This document shows, in pieces, positions 44,840 through 59,619 of a stretch of 64,000 nucleotides of DNA. The notes under the pieces were generated by a model. That model saw only the letters and a program-made list of their open reading frames with translations, was not told where the DNA came from and made no database searches. Source of the DNA: Fomitopsis serialis (lineage: Eukaryota > Basidiomycota > Agaricomycetes > Polyporales > Fomitopsidaceae); the NCBI RefSeq assembly GCF_022376445.1, contig NW_025954991.1, forward strand, positions 327,149-391,148. Direction: 5' to 3'. The position numbers and the translations under genes are program-made. Each line of letters opens with the position of its first letter. Position 1 is the stretch's first letter.

Positions 44840-44848
44840 GGATCCATC
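44840..44848. repeat. Target site duplication, left copy
   Basis: GGATCCATC directly before the left terminal repeat; repeated exactly at 50394-50402. Confidence 0.9.
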
Positions 44849-44983
44849 TAGTCTCGAACCCGCCTCTCACGGACACCCTAAAAGGGAACCCGTCCGTGAG
44901 AGTCTGGACGAGAACGAGCGCCCTAGGGGACCTTTGCGTCTCGCGACTCGCGGCGGGCGCTTCACTCACTCGCGCGTCGCGTC
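44849..44983 (+). repeat. Left terminal inverted repeat (135 bp)
   Basis: Matches the reverse complement of 50258-50393 over its whole length with a single one-base indel (CTAGGGGACC here, CTAGGGGGACC in the other). It contains a hairpin: CTCTCACGGAC at 44864-44874 and its perfect inverse GTCCGTGAGAG at 44892-44902. Confidence 0.9.
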
Positions 44984-45022
44984 GCCTGTACCATCGCGCT
45001 CTCCTGCGTGTGCGGCGCGATG

Positions 45023-45028
45023 TATAAT
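45023..45028 (+). promoter_or_regulatory. TATA box of the transposon helicase gene
   Basis: TATAAT within GATGTATAATACC, 40 bp inside the terminal repeat and about 90 bp before the helicase ATG, so the element carries its own promoter. Confidence 0.45.
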
Positions 45029-45116
45029 ACCCTTCTTTAACTGCAATCCATTCGTTTGTCTCCGGAAACCCGCGTGGCTGTCTTTCTACGCGTTTAGAGC
45101 TCTTCGGAGCTGTAAA

Positions 45117-47185
45117 ATGCAAGCTGCAGTATGGCCTCCACCTCGCAAGCGTCGTCGTGCTGAGCAGGACTCGCAATCCACACATGCCCCACGTACACCA
45201 TTGACAGGCTCGTCGACCAATGTCCAGCTCCTTACACCTCACTCGCCAACCCGCCATGTTCAGGCCAGTGGCCAGTCTCTTGCTCGTGAGCAGTCGAGGG
45301 GCAGTCCTTCCGACTCGCCGGGTCGCATATCACCACTCGCCTCGAAGGCCAAGAATCACCACGCTCTCTACCGCAATGGCTACGTTCTCAAAGAGAAACC
45401 CCCTCCCTACAAACCATACTCTCTCAACGCTCCAGGACGGCGTCGGCGCCAGGCCTTCGCATTCGAGTGCGATCTTCCGCCCAAGATCAATCCGACCACA
45501 CCACTCCTGAGAACACAGTGGAGCATGCTTGCTCGCGGTGCAAAAGCTATCCCGCTCGAGGGAGAGGTCAAAGAGCTTCAAATGGAGTGCTCCAATGCAA
45601 TTCTCGCTCGCAGTGGGGACATCTGCGTGATTGCACCGACCGGCTTCGGCAAGTCTCTCCTATGGACTCTCCCGCTCCTTACTCTGGATCGCGGTGTAGT
45701 CCTCGTTATCACACCTTTTACGAGCCTCGGAGAGGAAGGTCAGAATCAGTGAGTCCGCACACATCTGCTTATGTTATAACCGTTTGTTCATGTCACTGCG
45801 ATCACAGGACGAACACACTGGGTATCCCGTCGGTGTTCATACATGCAGGCCGCAAGGACTCAGCAACCCTTGAACAGGTTGCGAGTGGATTTTATCGCGT
45901 GACCTACGTCTGCGTCGAGATGCTGGAGTCGCCCGTGTTTGCGCAGATCCTGTACTCCGAGTGGTACAAGCGCCAGCTCGTCGCGATCTTCATCGACGAA
46001 GCGCATTGCGTTCACGAGTCGGACACTTGGCGTCCTGCGTATGGCCGGATGCATCAGCTGCGAACGACTGTGGGTAGTATGACCCCATTGATCGCCATGT
46101 CGGCTACTCTGCCTGCGCTGTATCGGGCGTCACTCACTGCGCATGTGGGAATGAAGGATGATTACATCCTCTTCAACATCGGAAACTTCCGTCCGGAGCT
46201 CTCGACAGTTGTCATACACATGGAGCACGATGTGAAGAGCTTCAAGGACCTCCGATTTGTGTTGCCGCGTGGGGGACAGTCACTCGCAGACCTGGACAAG
46301 TCAATTGTCTATTGTGATGACACAACACTGCTCACCGAAATGCTCTATTGGTTCCGACAGAAGCTCGAGGACCTCTCCCTTCCCGGAAGTGCGGTCGACA
46401 TCCTGCACGCCGGCCTATCTCCGGACCATCAGAGTCGAGCACTAGCAGACTTCAAAACAGGACGGACGCGGATACTCTTGTCGACCGAAAAGCTTGGCGC
46501 AGGCATGAATTTTCCGTTGGTAAAGCGAGTCATCCAGTACCTCTGCAGTGGTCTCACTATGGCAAAAGCGGACCAGCGCCGTGGGCGTGGTGCGAGAAGC
46601 CCCGGCATGACTGCAGTAGGCTATTTCATTGCAGAGAAGAAGTTCGAGCGCGGAGGCAAATTGAGTCCGCAGAAGCCTGGCCATGAGGACCCTGGGATAA
46701 TCGAGTTGGTCCAGACAGAGCGCTGCTGCGACTCCGTCTTTGATCATTACCTCGAGAACCCCCCACGCCCATCTGATAGTGCCCATCTAGTACCACGTCG
46801 TCTCTGCTGCTCCAATTGCTACCCCCAGCTCATCCCTCCGCGCGAGTTCGAGTTCGTGATGGTCAATCCCGCAGAAGACGAGTCGCGGCGCGCGGAGCGC
46901 CAAATGTCCACAAATGCGAAGCAGACGGTGCTCGCACGTCTGCAGGATTGGCGGGACAACGAGTGGCGCGAGCGATGGCGCTCCCGCTGGCCATTGTACG
47001 GCCCAAAATCGCTCATCTCGGACAAGGATCTCGAGGCCGTCGCCGACCATGCAGGTGCTATTCGGCGAGTTGACGACCTGTACCCGTTGACACATATCAT
47101 CCACTGGGATGATTTGGCGGAGCCGCTCTTCGACGCTATCCAGGCAGCTCTTCGTGCAGTGGGTGATACTGGGACAGGCCCATGA
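45117..47185 (+). CDS. RecQ-like superfamily 2 DNA helicase of the transposon
   Basis: Two exons (45117-45748, 45808-47185) sum to 2,010 bp, or 669 residues. A basic, Pro/Ser-rich N terminus (PPPRKRRRAEQ, a nuclear signal) precedes the helicase core. Motif I is CVIAPTGFGKSLLW, motif Ia VLVITPFTSL, motif II FIDEAHCVHES, motif III LIAMSATLPA, motif IV SIVYCDD, motif V ILLSTEKLGAGMNFP and motif VI ADQRRGRGARSPG. The arginine finger is present. After the core come four cysteines, ERCC and LCCSNCYP, where RecQ has its zinc-binding region, but no HRDC domain is seen. The ATG at 45117 was chosen because the open frame upstream runs into the terminal repeat. Likely function: unwinding DNA for transposition or repair at the excision site (inference). 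Confidence 0.85.
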
Positions 47186-47336
47186 CGAAACATGATGGTG
47201 AGCATGACCTTTTTATTGATGATACATTCAGGACTAAGTCGAAATTCGCAGGACACTAGAGTGACGGACAATCAGCCGGTGCTACGAAAGCTCGAGCTAG
47301 TGTAGTCACCCGCAGACCGTGACGGTCTGCCGTTCC

Positions 47337-50183
47337 CTACGCTTCATAATCATTGTATGGACTACCTGACCTCAATCCATTCTCTCCTGCTCTTATCAGA
47401 TCCACGAGTTCGTTCTCCTGCGCGTGTTCGAAGCCGTTAATCGGACCATTGTCGCTGTGAGTGTGCAACATGACTTCGGCTCCGTCCAATGTATCTTCGG
47501 CATTTGCCAGTTCATTTTCCGCCTCTGTGATGTCTTCGACAGAGTTCTCCGGGTGCGTGTCCCCATGTGATTCATCTGCATGACGAGAACGGAGTCGAAG
47601 ACGGTGTCGGAGAAGGTGCTTCGCATGGCCGCCATGTGGGCCGGCCAGTTGATGAAGGCCAGTTCGAAAGAGATCGGTGATGGCATGCTCAGACACCTGG
47701 TCGAGAGCGAATGACAGTGCGTGCGACGTGACAAGGTGATTCGCAAGGAGCCGGATGTCGGTATGTTGCTGCACCTTGGCATGGTGTTCATTCACGTCGC
47801 GCACACCTGTCTCCTTGTACACACGATCTGTCAAGTCCCTTACGTGACCAAGTGATGGTGTGACTTTGCAGAGCATCTCGGGTGTGGCATTCGTGCCATG
47901 CGCGCGGTTCTTGATGCGTAAATTGAGGTGTTCGACGTCCAGATCTGCCTCGAGAAAGCCATCAGGCTCACCAGTTGTATTGACGAGCATGCTGGCTAAG
48001 AGGACTTTGGCGGTATCCTCTGGCCAGTCATGTATCAGGTTGTGCAGTAATTCCATGCATTCGTGGGCATAATTGTAGCTTCGCCCTGCATAGAACATGG
48101 GTGTCCAGAATTTGAGGATCCGTAGGATCCGAGTCGGATGTCCGTGCTTGATAGCATGACGCATCTCTCGTAGTGTCATGAGATCAAACATTGTGAGTGC
48201 AGCATGGCCCGAGGTCGTGTTTCCCTTGACCGACTTGATTCCGTCGGCCTCAAGACGATCTGGTGAAGACATGACATATGTATCGACGATCGTCTCGCAC
48301 ATGGTCCGGAATTCGGCTGCTGTTGGTCTCTGCGAGGAGAGCTCTGTCGTGTCCTTGAGCGCGAGGGTTGAGACTGCAGCGGAAATCACGAGTGCTCGTA
48401 GGACACAATCCAAGAAACGCAGCCATGCATAGAAGTCGAATTTCTGGATATTGATCTCGCTCCGGTTTCGGAGCAAATCACGGAGTGTCTGAAGGCTCGT
48501 TGTGTCCCTGTTTGCTCCGCCCCAAAGGTTTTTGGCACATGCCTGGATGAAGTTGAAGCATACATGCATAAGCCCACTCGTCATAGCGAGGCTTGAGAGG
48601 TGGTCCGCCCTGAAATCGGAGCGATCGACTCCTCTTTGGTCCTGCGCTGCCCGATCGCGTGCAGTTGTGAGCCGGTCCCCAAGAACGAAGAACATTGTAT
48701 CTTCGAAGACTGCTTTAGGGATCTGCAGTACATCGATGAAATAGTGTTTCAACACGGCCATGTTGCCGCGTGTCGACCCTTGCTCTTGGTCGAACGTCGG
48801 TAGGTAATGGCGATCGGTCTTGCGTACGGGAATCGCATCGGGGTCAACAAGCCCTGGAACACTTGCACGGAAACCCGCAAATCCCGCAACCTCGTCCACC
48901 AGAATCATCATGACATGGCTGATAGCTGCGTCACGGAAGGCAGTATGGTCTGCTTCACTCGGCACAATGTCCTGCAAGGCTGTCTGTGCAGGCAGCCGGT
49001 GACGAGTCCCACGGCATGCTTCGAAACGCTCAACACTTGCGAGGCGATGTGCGGTCCCACTTTCAGGAAGGGTGAGGCTGATGACCATCGCGGATACCTG
49101 GTCATGCTGTACAGCACCGTGGAGAACTGATGTCTCCCACACACCGGAGACCCAGTTGAAATTGTCGTATGGCAGCATGATCATATTTCGGGGGTCGTTG
49201 GCGATCTTGCGTGCGATGCGAAGTGCGTTCGCCGAGAGCACCAGGATAGAGGTACATAGGTGATCATAAGACACAGAGACACCGAAGCGATTCAGCATCT
49301 GGACGAGGCGCTTCGGTGCACGGTTATCCCATAGGATCATGCTATTGATGACCTGATGTACGTTGGACTTCTGGCTACGCAGATTCAACAGTATCGATGT
49401 CGCCAATGTGCACCCCTATATGCAATACTCTGTAAGCACAGGTCTAAACAGCTAGGCCCGAAACACACGCACATCGTCTGGATTCCGGCTTTCGCTATCC
49501 CTCGCTGTGTTCTCCTTGTTGATGATTGCCTTCATGATCATCCGAGTCCGAGGCATAGTCTTGGAATACGCTGCCGTGAGGTCCTCGATTCGGAAGGACT
49601 TCAGCTGTGCGACAGACACGGTTGTCGCTGGCGAGCGAAGTCGTTCAGCATACACAGTATGCGGTCCTTCCGCAGCTCTGTCTGTGAGCCAGCCTGCCTC
49701 CCGTGCACATATCTTCGCTGCTCTCTCTGCGACCCAGCTGCATACGTCCTCGTCCCGCAGTCCAGACATCGACCAGAGCACTTCCAGCAGCTCCGGGATT
49801 CCACCATTGCCCTTCCATGTATTCACATAGTTCTTGATACCTCCGGAGTTCGAGGAGAACAGCGTCATGAGGAATGTACGAAGTGAAAAGCGGGAGAGGT
49901 TCTCCCGCATGAATTTCAGTACTGCGAACGCCTTCTCCTCGTCACTGCGGCGCCGCGCAGGAAGACCATGGCTTGGTACATAGCTCAGGTCTCCTTCGTC
50001 ATCCTCTGGGAAGTCCGGCAGTGTACCGAAAGGCTCCGGCGGCAGGTCATCGACCTCAATCGCCTCCACTGGTGGTGACGAACTCGGTGCAATAGAGCTC
50101 AATGCTTCGGGCTCATCCGAGTCGTCAACGAGTGTCAGATAGCCGGTATTTCGCACAGATCGAGTAAGATAGGATAACGGCAT
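47337..50183 (-). CDS. DUF6589 protein, candidate transposase
   Basis: Exon 1 is 50183-49473 and exon 2 is 49415-47337, joined over a 57-bp intron; 929 residues. The N terminus is acidic (EAIEVDDLPPEPF), then a helical region ending SFRIEDLTAAYSKTMPRTRM. The C-terminal two thirds matches the DUF6589 family of Agaricomycetes (YNYAHECMELLHNL, LVNTTGEPDGFLEADLDVEH). Candidate acidic active-site residues in order are Asp of MLPYDNFNWV, Asp of FFVLGDRLTT and Glu of DLDVEHLNLRIK, the pattern of an RNase H-like DDE transposase. Family assignment rests on recall; the catalytic residues are my inference. No stop or frameshift is present. It lies in the element with only 150 bp to the helicase stop. 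Confidence 0.8.
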
Positions 50184-50257
50184 GATTTATTGCAGTCTAG
50201 TGGAAGATATGTAGCCAAGGTCGAGATTGTACGCTCGCGCGAGCCTCAAAGGCGAGA

Positions 50258-50393
50258 GACGCGACGCGCGAGTGAGTGAAGCGCCCGCCGCGAGTCGCGA
50301 GACGCAAAGGTCCCCCTAGGGCGCTCGTTCTCGTCCAGACTCTCACGGACGGGTTCCCTTTTAGGGTGTCCGTGAGAGGCGGGTTCGAGACTA
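50258..50393 (-). repeat. Right terminal inverted repeat (136 bp)
   Basis: Inverse copy of 44849-44983 with one extra G. It contains the same hairpin arms. It ends CGAGACTA, immediately followed by the duplicated GGATCCATC. Confidence 0.9.
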
Positions 50394-50402
50394 GGATCCA
50401 TC
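50394..50402. repeat. Target site duplication, right copy
   Basis: GGATCCATC, identical to 44840-44848. Confidence 0.9.
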
Positions 50403-55139: not shown

Positions 55140-58100
55140 TTATTCCCCCTGGTCCATCAATTCCTCCCCAGCCTGATTATCGGGCGCCGTCTTGCTCTCG
55201 GACTCGGAGGCCAGCTGGTCGCTCTCTTCGTCGATCTCGCCGGTTCGGGGGCGCTTCCTTCCTGAGCCCTGAGCGTTATACGTCGGACCACCGAGTAGAG
55301 GGGCGATTGGATGACCTCGCGGCTTTCCGCGCCTCCACAACGCGTCGAGCTCCGTTTGTTCCTGAGCGGTGGCCCGCGCTGCTGAGGAGGTAGATGCCGT
55401 GCGCGTACGGCCGTTTGCAACGTCGGGTTGCTCAACACTCAGAGATACGGGGGAAAGTGTGCGCGGTCTCTCTGGGAGAGACGCCGAACCCGACAAATAG
55501 GCGACGGCGGCGGGGGATCTCATGGCCCAGCCCGTGGGCCTATTCCAGCCAGGCGCTGCGCCTGCTGAGATCCGGCTTGCCGGCAGCGCCCTCTTATATG
55601 TGGGGGCTGCGTCTTCGACTGGCTCGTCAACTTCTGGCAACGGCGGAAGTAGCGAGCCCGGTGCGGGAGGGAGAGCGTGTCGTGGGCTTTGTTCTCGTCA
55701 GCTGGACGGGGGATCGAGTCTGGAAGAGGGGCGAAAATAACGGATTCCGCGCCCTCGGAAGCGGTGGGGGACGGTGGTGATGTTAGGAGGCGCACTGGAG
55801 TCAGAGGGCTCAGCGGAGCCGAGGGCACTCTGACCACGCGATTAATGTCGTCGCGAATTTTGATTTCGATCTCTCGAACGCGTTCCAGAGTCAAATCCAT
55901 CGCCTGGAGTGTCCCCCCTTGACAAGGTCTATGTCGCTGCGCAGTGTGCACGCCTGCTCGACTCCACTCCTCATCGTCGCAATGTCGGCTGAAATGTCAG
56001 CAATGACGCCCTCCAGCTGCGCCTTCTCCGCGTGAAGCTGGTTGACTTCCTCGCGAAGCTGGTTGACTTGCTGCCCCATATCCCCCGTTGTGAGAGCCAA
56101 CTCGTCGCGTATCTTGTCCACCTCAGACCACGTGGGACCAGTGCTCGGCGCTGGGCCATTGGCCACCTCTTCGACCCTCGCCTGCAGCACTGCGTGCCTC
56201 TCGCTCTCATACTTGAGGAAGAGGATGATACTCGCCCACGCGTCGGCAGGATTGAATGAGGCCTGCGGCGTAGCTACACCCTGCGTCGCCAGGAACCGGA
56301 TGTAACCCTCCGCCTCCTGCCTTGCCTGTAAACTCAATGGTGCGGGAACCGACGGCGTGGCCGATCTGGGGCACAGACAGGGAGGGAACCGACGGCGTGG
56401 CCGACGTCTGGGGCACAGACAGGGAGGGAACCGACGGCGTAGCCGACGTCTGGGGCACAGACAGGGAGGGAACCGACGGCGTGGCCGACGTCTGGGGCAC
56501 AGACAGGGAGGGCCCGCGTGGGCTGCGCTTGGAGATGATGGCACGGGCGACATTCTAATCAGCCCGGCGAACGCGTCAGTCTGCTCGTCACCATCTGAGA
56601 TCGAGATGACGTCGTCCTCTTGGTGCGCCTGAGCTGCTTCCGGAGAAGACGCCGGTCTCTTCCCAGCGGCGTGGGATGGTGGGCGCTTCGGCTACGGAGA
56701 GGCATGAGGACTGGTTCAAAAAGATGTTGGGGCAAACTCACCGCCTCGGGAACAGGCACGACGCCTTCGCCACCCGTTTCGTCCGCGGGCGTTTCGATCA
56801 AATTGATCACATCGGCGTCCTCGTCGAGATCAATTGGCTTGTCGGGCGAAATCCCTCGGCCGACTAGTTTCGCCTTCTTCCGGGCACTCCGCTTCTTCGA
56901 AGTTGGCTCGGCCTTGTGACCCTCCTCGTCGCTCTCTGGCTCGCTCTCCGTGTCGCCTTTCCTGTCCAGCTTGGGAGGCTCTATAAGTTGGCCCCGTGCT
57001 AAGGCGGACCGACGCACGGCGACCCAGTCCATCAGCTTGTCGCTGACCCGTTTATCCGTATTGTCCCAGGTATCCAGGTCGACGACCCAAGAACCGGGTT
57101 TCCCCTGTATCCCATTCCAAACCGGCAGGTCCGGGTATGGTAGGCGCTGGGCCTTCCGGTCGGCCACCCACATTCGCCATTCGGCGGCGGCCGTCCCTGC
57201 GATGCTGTTCTTGAAGACACGCCCGTCGTGCATGTGGCGCGGGACGAGCGAACAGGCCGATTTAGCTGTCTGACAGCCCGTGCAGCGAGCCATCACGACC
57301 TTGTGGGTCGGCTTCCTCTTGTGCGCCCCAACAACGTAGAGGCACGTTTTGCCCAAGTGGAGGCAGCGGTCGCATTCCACGGGCTAAATCATCAGGGTCC
57401 GCTGGTGAACCGAAAGCGGCGCAACTCACCGGATGAATCAAGTCCCCAACCCTCGCCTTTGATTCGGCCAGTTCGTAAGCGTTGACTTGCACCGACACAG
57501 GCGCCTTTACAGGAGGCGCCGTACCCCCGTTGCCGTCGGCGCGCGCCACCTCTTCCTCTCGGTCGACCTCCATTAGCGCTGTGGAGGGCCCGGCCTCCTT
57601 GCGATCCGCGGCCCCCTTCCCCGCATTTGTCTGGCGGCCGTGAATCCCCTCGGCCATTGCCAATGGCTCTTCTTCATCCGAGCCGACGCGGGCCCTCGAC
57701 TTGAGCCCAGCCTTGCCGCCTTTCCCCAACCCCTGCCCCCTCTTGACGACATCGGGTGGCTTCACAACATTAATGCGCTTCCGCTTCTTCTCCTGCACGC
57801 CCTCGGCCGCCTCGCCAACCGGCGCTGAGTCCATCGGCCGAGTCCGCTTCTTACTGGTGGCGGTGCCGACCTCTGCGGAGTCAGCCCCTTGTAAGTTTCT
57901 AGCAAGACTGAGTAATGAATACCAAATCCTTACCATCCGAGGGTCCCGCAGTGGGCCTTTCTCCCTCCGCGCTGGTTGAGACGGGTCGACGGCCGTCTCT
58001 GAAGCGCTTGTAAGCGAGTGAATCAAGACGCTAAGGGATGGCGTACTTGGCTTCCACCATTCGTGCGCACGCGCCGCATAGCGTTCAATGTCCATAGCCA

Positions 58101-58583: not shown

Positions 58584-59619
58584 GTTTGACAGCGCATCAA
58601 ATTCACGTGATTGCTTCCCACGCGTGTTTCACCCGCATCAGCGCCCGCGCGTCGCGAATCTGTGTGGCTTCCGACCTGACCGTCGCCAATTCCCGCTTGC
58701 CCCGCGGCGGTCGCCATTCGCCCATTCCATACCACAGGTATGTGTAAGCTCCGTGGATGCCATAATTGAGCGACTCATCGCTAACCGGCGTCAGTCTTGC
58801 GCAGCCCATAGGCAATATGGGTCCTGATCGAACTCCCCACAAGAGGCGCCGTGGCAGCTACGGTGAGTAACTCGGCTCGGTGGGACACTCACTCGGTGAC
58901 AATTGCCCTCATAGAGGTGATGGTTGGAGGAGCTCGACGGCCGGCGAGGCATCTCGGCGGCAACGAAGACACAGGCATTCCTCCTCTCCGCGGTCCACCC
59001 GCTCCAGTTCTGGCACCTCCCCCCTTCCCACGTCACTCGGCTGGCATGGCCATTCCGCCCCCCCCTATTGCGACCTGCTGGTGCCTCCCCTGGGGCCTCC
59101 CGCACCCATTCTTTCCCCCCTCCCGGCAAGGCCTCCTCCACCTGTTTCTAGGGCTCTCCCGGCTTCACCGGCGCGTGTTCCTGGCCGGCCGGCTTATCCT
59201 CCTTCGCCGGTCTTTGCCCCGCCTTCCCCGCACCCGCACCCCCGCTCGCCGATCTTTGCCCCGCTCCCCCTCAGTCGCCGCTTTTTGCCCCGCTTCCCCC
59301 CTCGTCGCCGCTTTTTGCCCGCTTCCCCCCCCGCTCGCCGCTTTTTGCTCCGCTTCCCCTCCTCGCTCGCCGCTTTTTGCCCCGCTTCCCCCCCCAGTCG
59401 CCGCTTTTTGCCCGCTTCCCCCCCCCAGTCACCTCTCCCCCCTCGTCACCTCTTTTTGCCCGCTTCCCCTCCTCGCTCGCCGCTTTATGCTCCGCTTCCC
59501 CCTCGCTCGCCGATCTTTGCCCGCTTCCCCCTCCCCGCTCGCCGGTCTTTGACTCGCTTCCCTCCCGTCCGGCATCGCCACCTTTTCCTTCGGCGCACGC
59601 ACCTATACAGATACCTGCG
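58584..59619. other. Intergenic with C-rich minisatellite
   Basis: Divergent upstream regions of the Cys-rich gene (minus) and the chromodomain gene (plus). The right half is a minisatellite, listed separately. Open frames through it are Pro/Ser/Arg low-complexity and are not called. Confidence 0.45.
59190..59570 (+). repeat. C-rich minisatellite, about 30-bp unit, about 12 copies
   Basis: Degenerate units CGCCGCTTTTTGCCCCGCTT followed by a run of C/T and CTCGCT or CCAGT. Unit lengths are about 28-32 bp. The plus strand is strongly C-rich, so the minus strand carries many short G runs. It ends about 50 bp before the chromodomain ATG. Confidence 0.8.

Follow-up and report, generated by a model that had tools for sequence, protein, structure and literature searches.

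Among the closest described systems are DNA transposons that carry a helicase. AcademH, the helicase-bearing lineage of Academ, generates target site duplications (TSDs) of 9 or 10 bp (PMC10045372) and is reported at low copy in Basidiomycota (PMC10799480), and in bivalves the mean length of Academ elements is 5,565 bp (PMC10294476). A RecQ helicase is also carried by KolobokH, known only from fungi, in which it is located downstream of the transposase domain, and in Kolobok-1_CCri of a red alga the RecQ gene lies on the complementary strand (PMC9587614). The element considered here is a 5,545-bp DNA element of Fomitopsis serialis, a wood-rotting bracket fungus of the Polyporales, at positions 44849-50393 of the window, the whole 64,000-nucleotide stretch of DNA that was analysed. 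The most likely reading is a cut-and-paste DNA transposon of the AcademH type, probably autonomous, whose DDE transposase is a protein of the DUF6589 family.

Structure and recent mobility of the element

Two convergent genes, each with one short intron, lie between long terminal inverted repeats (TIRs), and no third gene was recognised inside the 5,545 bp. The exon models of both genes use putative splice sites read from the sequence. The features are, in order:

44840-44848, no strand: left 9-bp TSD, GGATCCATC, read from the sequence
44849-44983, + strand: left TIR, 135 nt, tip TAGTCTCGAACC, pairing with the 136-nt right end with one 1-nt indel
44859-44907, + strand: left subterminal hairpin, arms 44859-44874 and 44892-44907, DNA fold z -3.4 against 100 dinucleotide shuffles
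45117-47185, + strand: RecQ-like superfamily II (SF2) helicase gene, 669 aa, exons 45117-45748 and 45808-47185 (PF00270, PF00271; solved relatives)
47337-50183, - strand: DUF6589 gene, 929 aa, exons 50183-49473 and 49415-47337, probable DDE transposase (PF20231; predicted fold)
50258-50393, - strand: right TIR, 136 nt, pairing with the left end
50335-50383, - strand: right subterminal hairpin, arms 50335-50350 and 50368-50383, DNA fold z -2.6
50394-50402, no strand: right 9-bp TSD, GGATCCATC, read from the sequence

The TIR arms are fully complementary except for the indel at about 44925, which is private to the left end of the window copy; the G missing there is present in the copies on contigs C523, C390 and C556 (four copies compared). 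A preliminary description of this DNA had reported inverted ends of 135 and 136 bp with one indel, a perfect 9-bp duplication and two intact convergent genes, all of which stand, the genes now as spliced models.

Copies and empty sites were sought in this one assembly. A 161-nt query from the element end has 13 matches in the genome, and a second copy occupies a separate site (C556:285278-290822), with flanks unrelated to those of the window copy and its own 9-bp duplication, ACGTGTACG, bordering it on both sides. Over the 5,545 bp the two copies are distinguished by 9 substitutions and 2 one-base indels, 11 positions in all. On contig C540 both flanks of the C556 copy are found in collinear order around a single ACGTGTACG, and no element lies between them; the joined flanks match C540 at 99.4% over 1,730 of 2,000 bp, the unmatched 270 bp of the left flank being a repeat present on other contigs. 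Whether C540 represents the second allele or a closely similar duplicate, it provides a clean empty site. The element has moved, and recently, as follows from the second site with its own duplication, the empty counterpart and the 11 differing positions. The preliminary description, which had called the element intact and recently moved and had proposed searching for further copies with the same ends and testing strains for presence or absence of the element, is thereby borne out within this one assembly.

Three further contigs, C390, C523 and C674, carry the flanks of the window copy with many 1-nt differences; C390 and C523 stop 37 bp past the duplication of the element, and C674 starts within the element. 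All three appear to be duplicated or poor-quality assemblies of the window locus, and since their flanks are the same as those of the window copy they were rejected as independent copies. Such duplication of the locus is what would be seen if the repeat structure reflected segmental duplication or misassembly and not transposition, an explanation left with next to no probability and rejected because the C556 copy lies in unrelated flanking DNA with a 9-bp duplication of its own, and because C540 provides its collinear empty counterpart.

Two short foldback elements have the tips of the window element. One, of 103 bp (C2:355535-355637), is accompanied by a 9-bp duplication, GGGGAGCGG; at the other, of 94 bp (C54:36490-36583), no target duplication was found.

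DUF6589 as a probable DDE transposase

The 929-aa protein matches DUF6589 (PF20231) over residues 381-782 with an E value of 8.7e-99 in a Pfam scan. This is the only Pfam family above the cut-off, a PAP2 match being below threshold. The protein model is equal in length to a deposited F. serialis protein (P0001), from which it differs at 3 of 929 residues. The fold predicted for it matches those of Hermes, the P element, Tn5 and RAG1. The nearest solved folds are those of hAT (Hermes) and the P element, but at only about 6-10% identity; both make 8-bp TSDs and have no helicase. By prediction and conservation, D321, D484 and E732 form a conserved, ordered D-D-E on an RNase H-like core. The notion that DUF6589 is the transposase, already put forward in the preliminary description, is well supported: by the predicted fold, by conservation of the D-D-E residues and by the way it is paired with a helicase in elements flanked by 9-bp duplications.

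Two points weigh against this assignment. A DUF6589 profile compared by sequence with solved structures gave 0 matches, so that by sequence alone the family shows no kinship with any solved transposase, and Pfam describes no function for it. Both would be expected if DUF6589 were an accessory only, with the helicase or an outside transposase driving transposition. This is nevertheless improbable, as the predicted RNase H-like fold carries an ordered D-D-E, the element has no recognisable third gene, and the 9-bp duplications and inverted ends are unlike the traces of helicase-driven rolling-circle elements, which leave neither. No paper naming DUF6589 or IPR046496 was found in the literature searched, where PF20231 occurs only in an unrelated optics paper; the AcademH literature may use another name for the family.

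MULE elements (MuDR) also have long inverted ends and a 9-bp TSD, and in these respects resemble the window element. They differ in domain: the MULE transposase domain (PF10551) was not detected in the 929-aa protein by the Pfam scan, which returned DUF6589 as its sole family above cut-off, and a MULE was rejected on these grounds.

DUF6589 matches form 47 clusters in the F. serialis genome, among which three contigs repeat the window locus. At other loci with DUF6589 and a helicase, 9-bp duplications predicted for the elements were present in six of nine cases and were not found at C632, C52 and C77. Two loci have a more complex arrangement. At C162:15392-26846 the DUF6589 gene is interrupted by about 4.5 kb of DNA that is probably a nested insertion. 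At C113:269686-281454 two pairs of DUF6589 and helicase genes, separated by about 2.8 kb, mirror each other in order, which may reflect a nested insertion, a palindrome or a misassembly. Beyond this genome, 119 DUF6589 homologs pass E 0.001 among 7,995 candidates scored. The recognised species names among the 119 are those of basidiomycetes, and the family is present in many mushroom genomes under the label "hypothetical protein". Searches for relatives gave 75 pattern matches in viral contigs and 118 in prokaryote genomes, none of which was confirmed. A distant-relative search with residues 770-1140 of P0119 returned only P0119 itself and no animal relative; because a single query was used, this absence is weak evidence.

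The helicase partner and the relation to AcademH

The 669-aa protein has the DEAD (PF00270, 3e-15) and Helicase_C (PF00271, 2.6e-13) domains of Pfam, and its residues 153-475 match RECQL5 with an E value of 4.3e-18. Its best solved relatives are RECQL5, E. coli RecQ, WRN and BLM. The RecQ zinc-binding and RQC domains have no Pfam match in the window helicase, and conserved cysteines are found downstream of the core in seven aligned homologs. The C-terminal frame of the window helicase is the one conserved in these seven homologs. A run of C at 46759 is one base shorter in the C556, C390 and C523 copies, which breaks the helicase frame there. In the C556 copy DUF6589 is open, and in C390 and C523 the DUF6589 frames are broken as well; given the many such differences on C390 and C523, their helicase frame break may be a sequencing error. 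With frames broken in all three, the window copy is the sole full copy in this assembly with both genes open.

The two genes keep company well beyond this locus. Of the 38 helicase clusters in the genome, 29 have DUF6589 no more than 10 kb away, against an expectation of 0.57. Elsewhere, 19 of 55 close helicase homologs co-occur with one of the 118 DUF6589 homologs for which a contig is listed, on contigs of equal size, compared with 2 of 65 more distant RecQ-like proteins that served as a control (among 120 of 128 helicase matches listed), the sharing of a contig being inferred from its equal size in bp. Fourteen of the 19 co-occurrences are on contigs of at least 8,705 bp, and there both proteins have the same species name; the other five, at 4-7 kb, may include chance matches, and one of these sizes (5,390) recurs in the control. 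Distances among the helicases correlate with those among the DUF6589 proteins (r 0.87, reached in 0 of 5,000 permutations, 19 pairs and the window pair), a value to which shared species history may add. The helicase, which accompanies DUF6589 and whose distances correlate with those of its partner, probably assists transposition.

In carrying a RecQ helicase the element resembles KolobokH, likewise a DNA transposon of fungi, and in having the RecQ gene on the opposite strand it resembles Kolobok-1_CCri (PMC9587614). The same source places the KolobokH helicase downstream of the transposase domain, whereas the window helicase has a gene to itself, on the strand opposite DUF6589. The window and C556 duplications are 9 bp long and without TTAA, and TTAA is the sequence that Kolobok elements duplicate. 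A KolobokH-like element is thus very improbable and was rejected, on account of both the 9-bp duplications and the separate helicase gene.

The published features of AcademH (PMC10045372, PMC10799480) fit the element, which shares with it the helicase, the 9-bp TSD and a host among the Basidiomycota, no difference being noted in the features compared. A 9-bp TSD borders the window copy, the C556 copy and the 103-bp foldback element and was present in six of the nine cases predicted elsewhere, and the PF00270 and PF00271 domains together with the RECQL5, RecQ, WRN and BLM relatives place the helicase in superfamily II. Because the helicase and the 9-bp TSD match the published descriptions, the element fits the AcademH type by its features, a label that rests on resemblance.

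Three observations count against this affiliation: the distant-relative search, with its one query, found no relatives, MULEs also make 9-bp TSDs, and RecQ helicases have been recruited more than once, since KolobokH and the red-alga Kolobok-1_CCri have them too. DUF6589 could then define a superfamily of its own, the element being a genuine DDE transposon with its RecQ-like helicase but resembling AcademH through convergence. This is a distinctly less likely reading, in that AcademH is reported to have the combination of helicase, 9 or 10-bp TSDs and low copy in Basidiomycota that the element fits.

Element ends and proposed mechanism

Both ends of the window element, and the other DUF6589-element ends that could be read, start with TAGnCTCG. 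Folded as DNA, ten ends scored below dinucleotide shuffles by 2.6 to 5.2 standard deviations, three of the ten belonging to the window family and being nearly identical. The arms of the hairpin differ among the ends of the window element, of C64, C77, C1 and C156, of C34 and C124, and of C632, yet they remain complementary, and the end at C52 has the same design of tip and hairpin. A recurring hairpin of this kind may have been kept by selection, perhaps as a substrate of the transposase or the helicase. At C34:2787-3784, inverted tips with the same letters as the two ends of the C1 element lie 998 bp apart, possibly a non-autonomous derivative.

When 18 DUF6589 loci were scanned for TAG.CTCG with hairpin arms, three had such an end (C52, C235 and C556). 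The remaining 15 did not in the stretch examined, which speaks against generality, although the stretch may not have reached far enough or the ends may differ too much. A tentative, wider reading would make DUF6589 a DDE family whose elements usually have a co-evolving RecQ-like helicase, several lineages having TAGnCTCG with a compensating hairpin on which the helicase acts; its probability is lowered by the scan, in which no more than 3 loci out of 18 had ends of this kind. If true, tip and hairpin would be a new transposon-end design, whether DUF6589 belongs within Academ or forms its own superfamily.

For the window element itself, the proposed mechanism is as follows. DUF6589 would be a DDE transposase of the RNase H fold in which a long helical stretch precedes the last of the predicted catalytic residues (D321, D484, E732). 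It would recognise the long inverted ends, the cues perhaps being the TAGnCTCG tip and the adjacent hairpin-forming repeat, the latter possibly through binding of the hairpin. It would then bring the ends together, cut them and connect them to the target with joins staggered by 9 bp; the 9-bp duplication would be the product of repair by the host. The RecQ-like helicase, as a standing partner, would probably unwind the ends or the strand-transfer product. Movement would be by cut-and-paste and not by copying, and the element would be complete enough to move itself.

Elsewhere in the window are two tandem arrays, one of about four copies of a 42-bp unit (56344-56512) and one of C-rich units of about 30 bp (59239-59562).

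The kind of transposon is known, and the new part is the naming of DUF6589 as a probable DDE transposase family. DUF6589 thereby gains a concrete, testable function, and many gene models could become transposon genes on re-annotation. The window locus provides a very recently active and possibly complete element with which to ask what makes some DNA transposons retain a helicase of their own.
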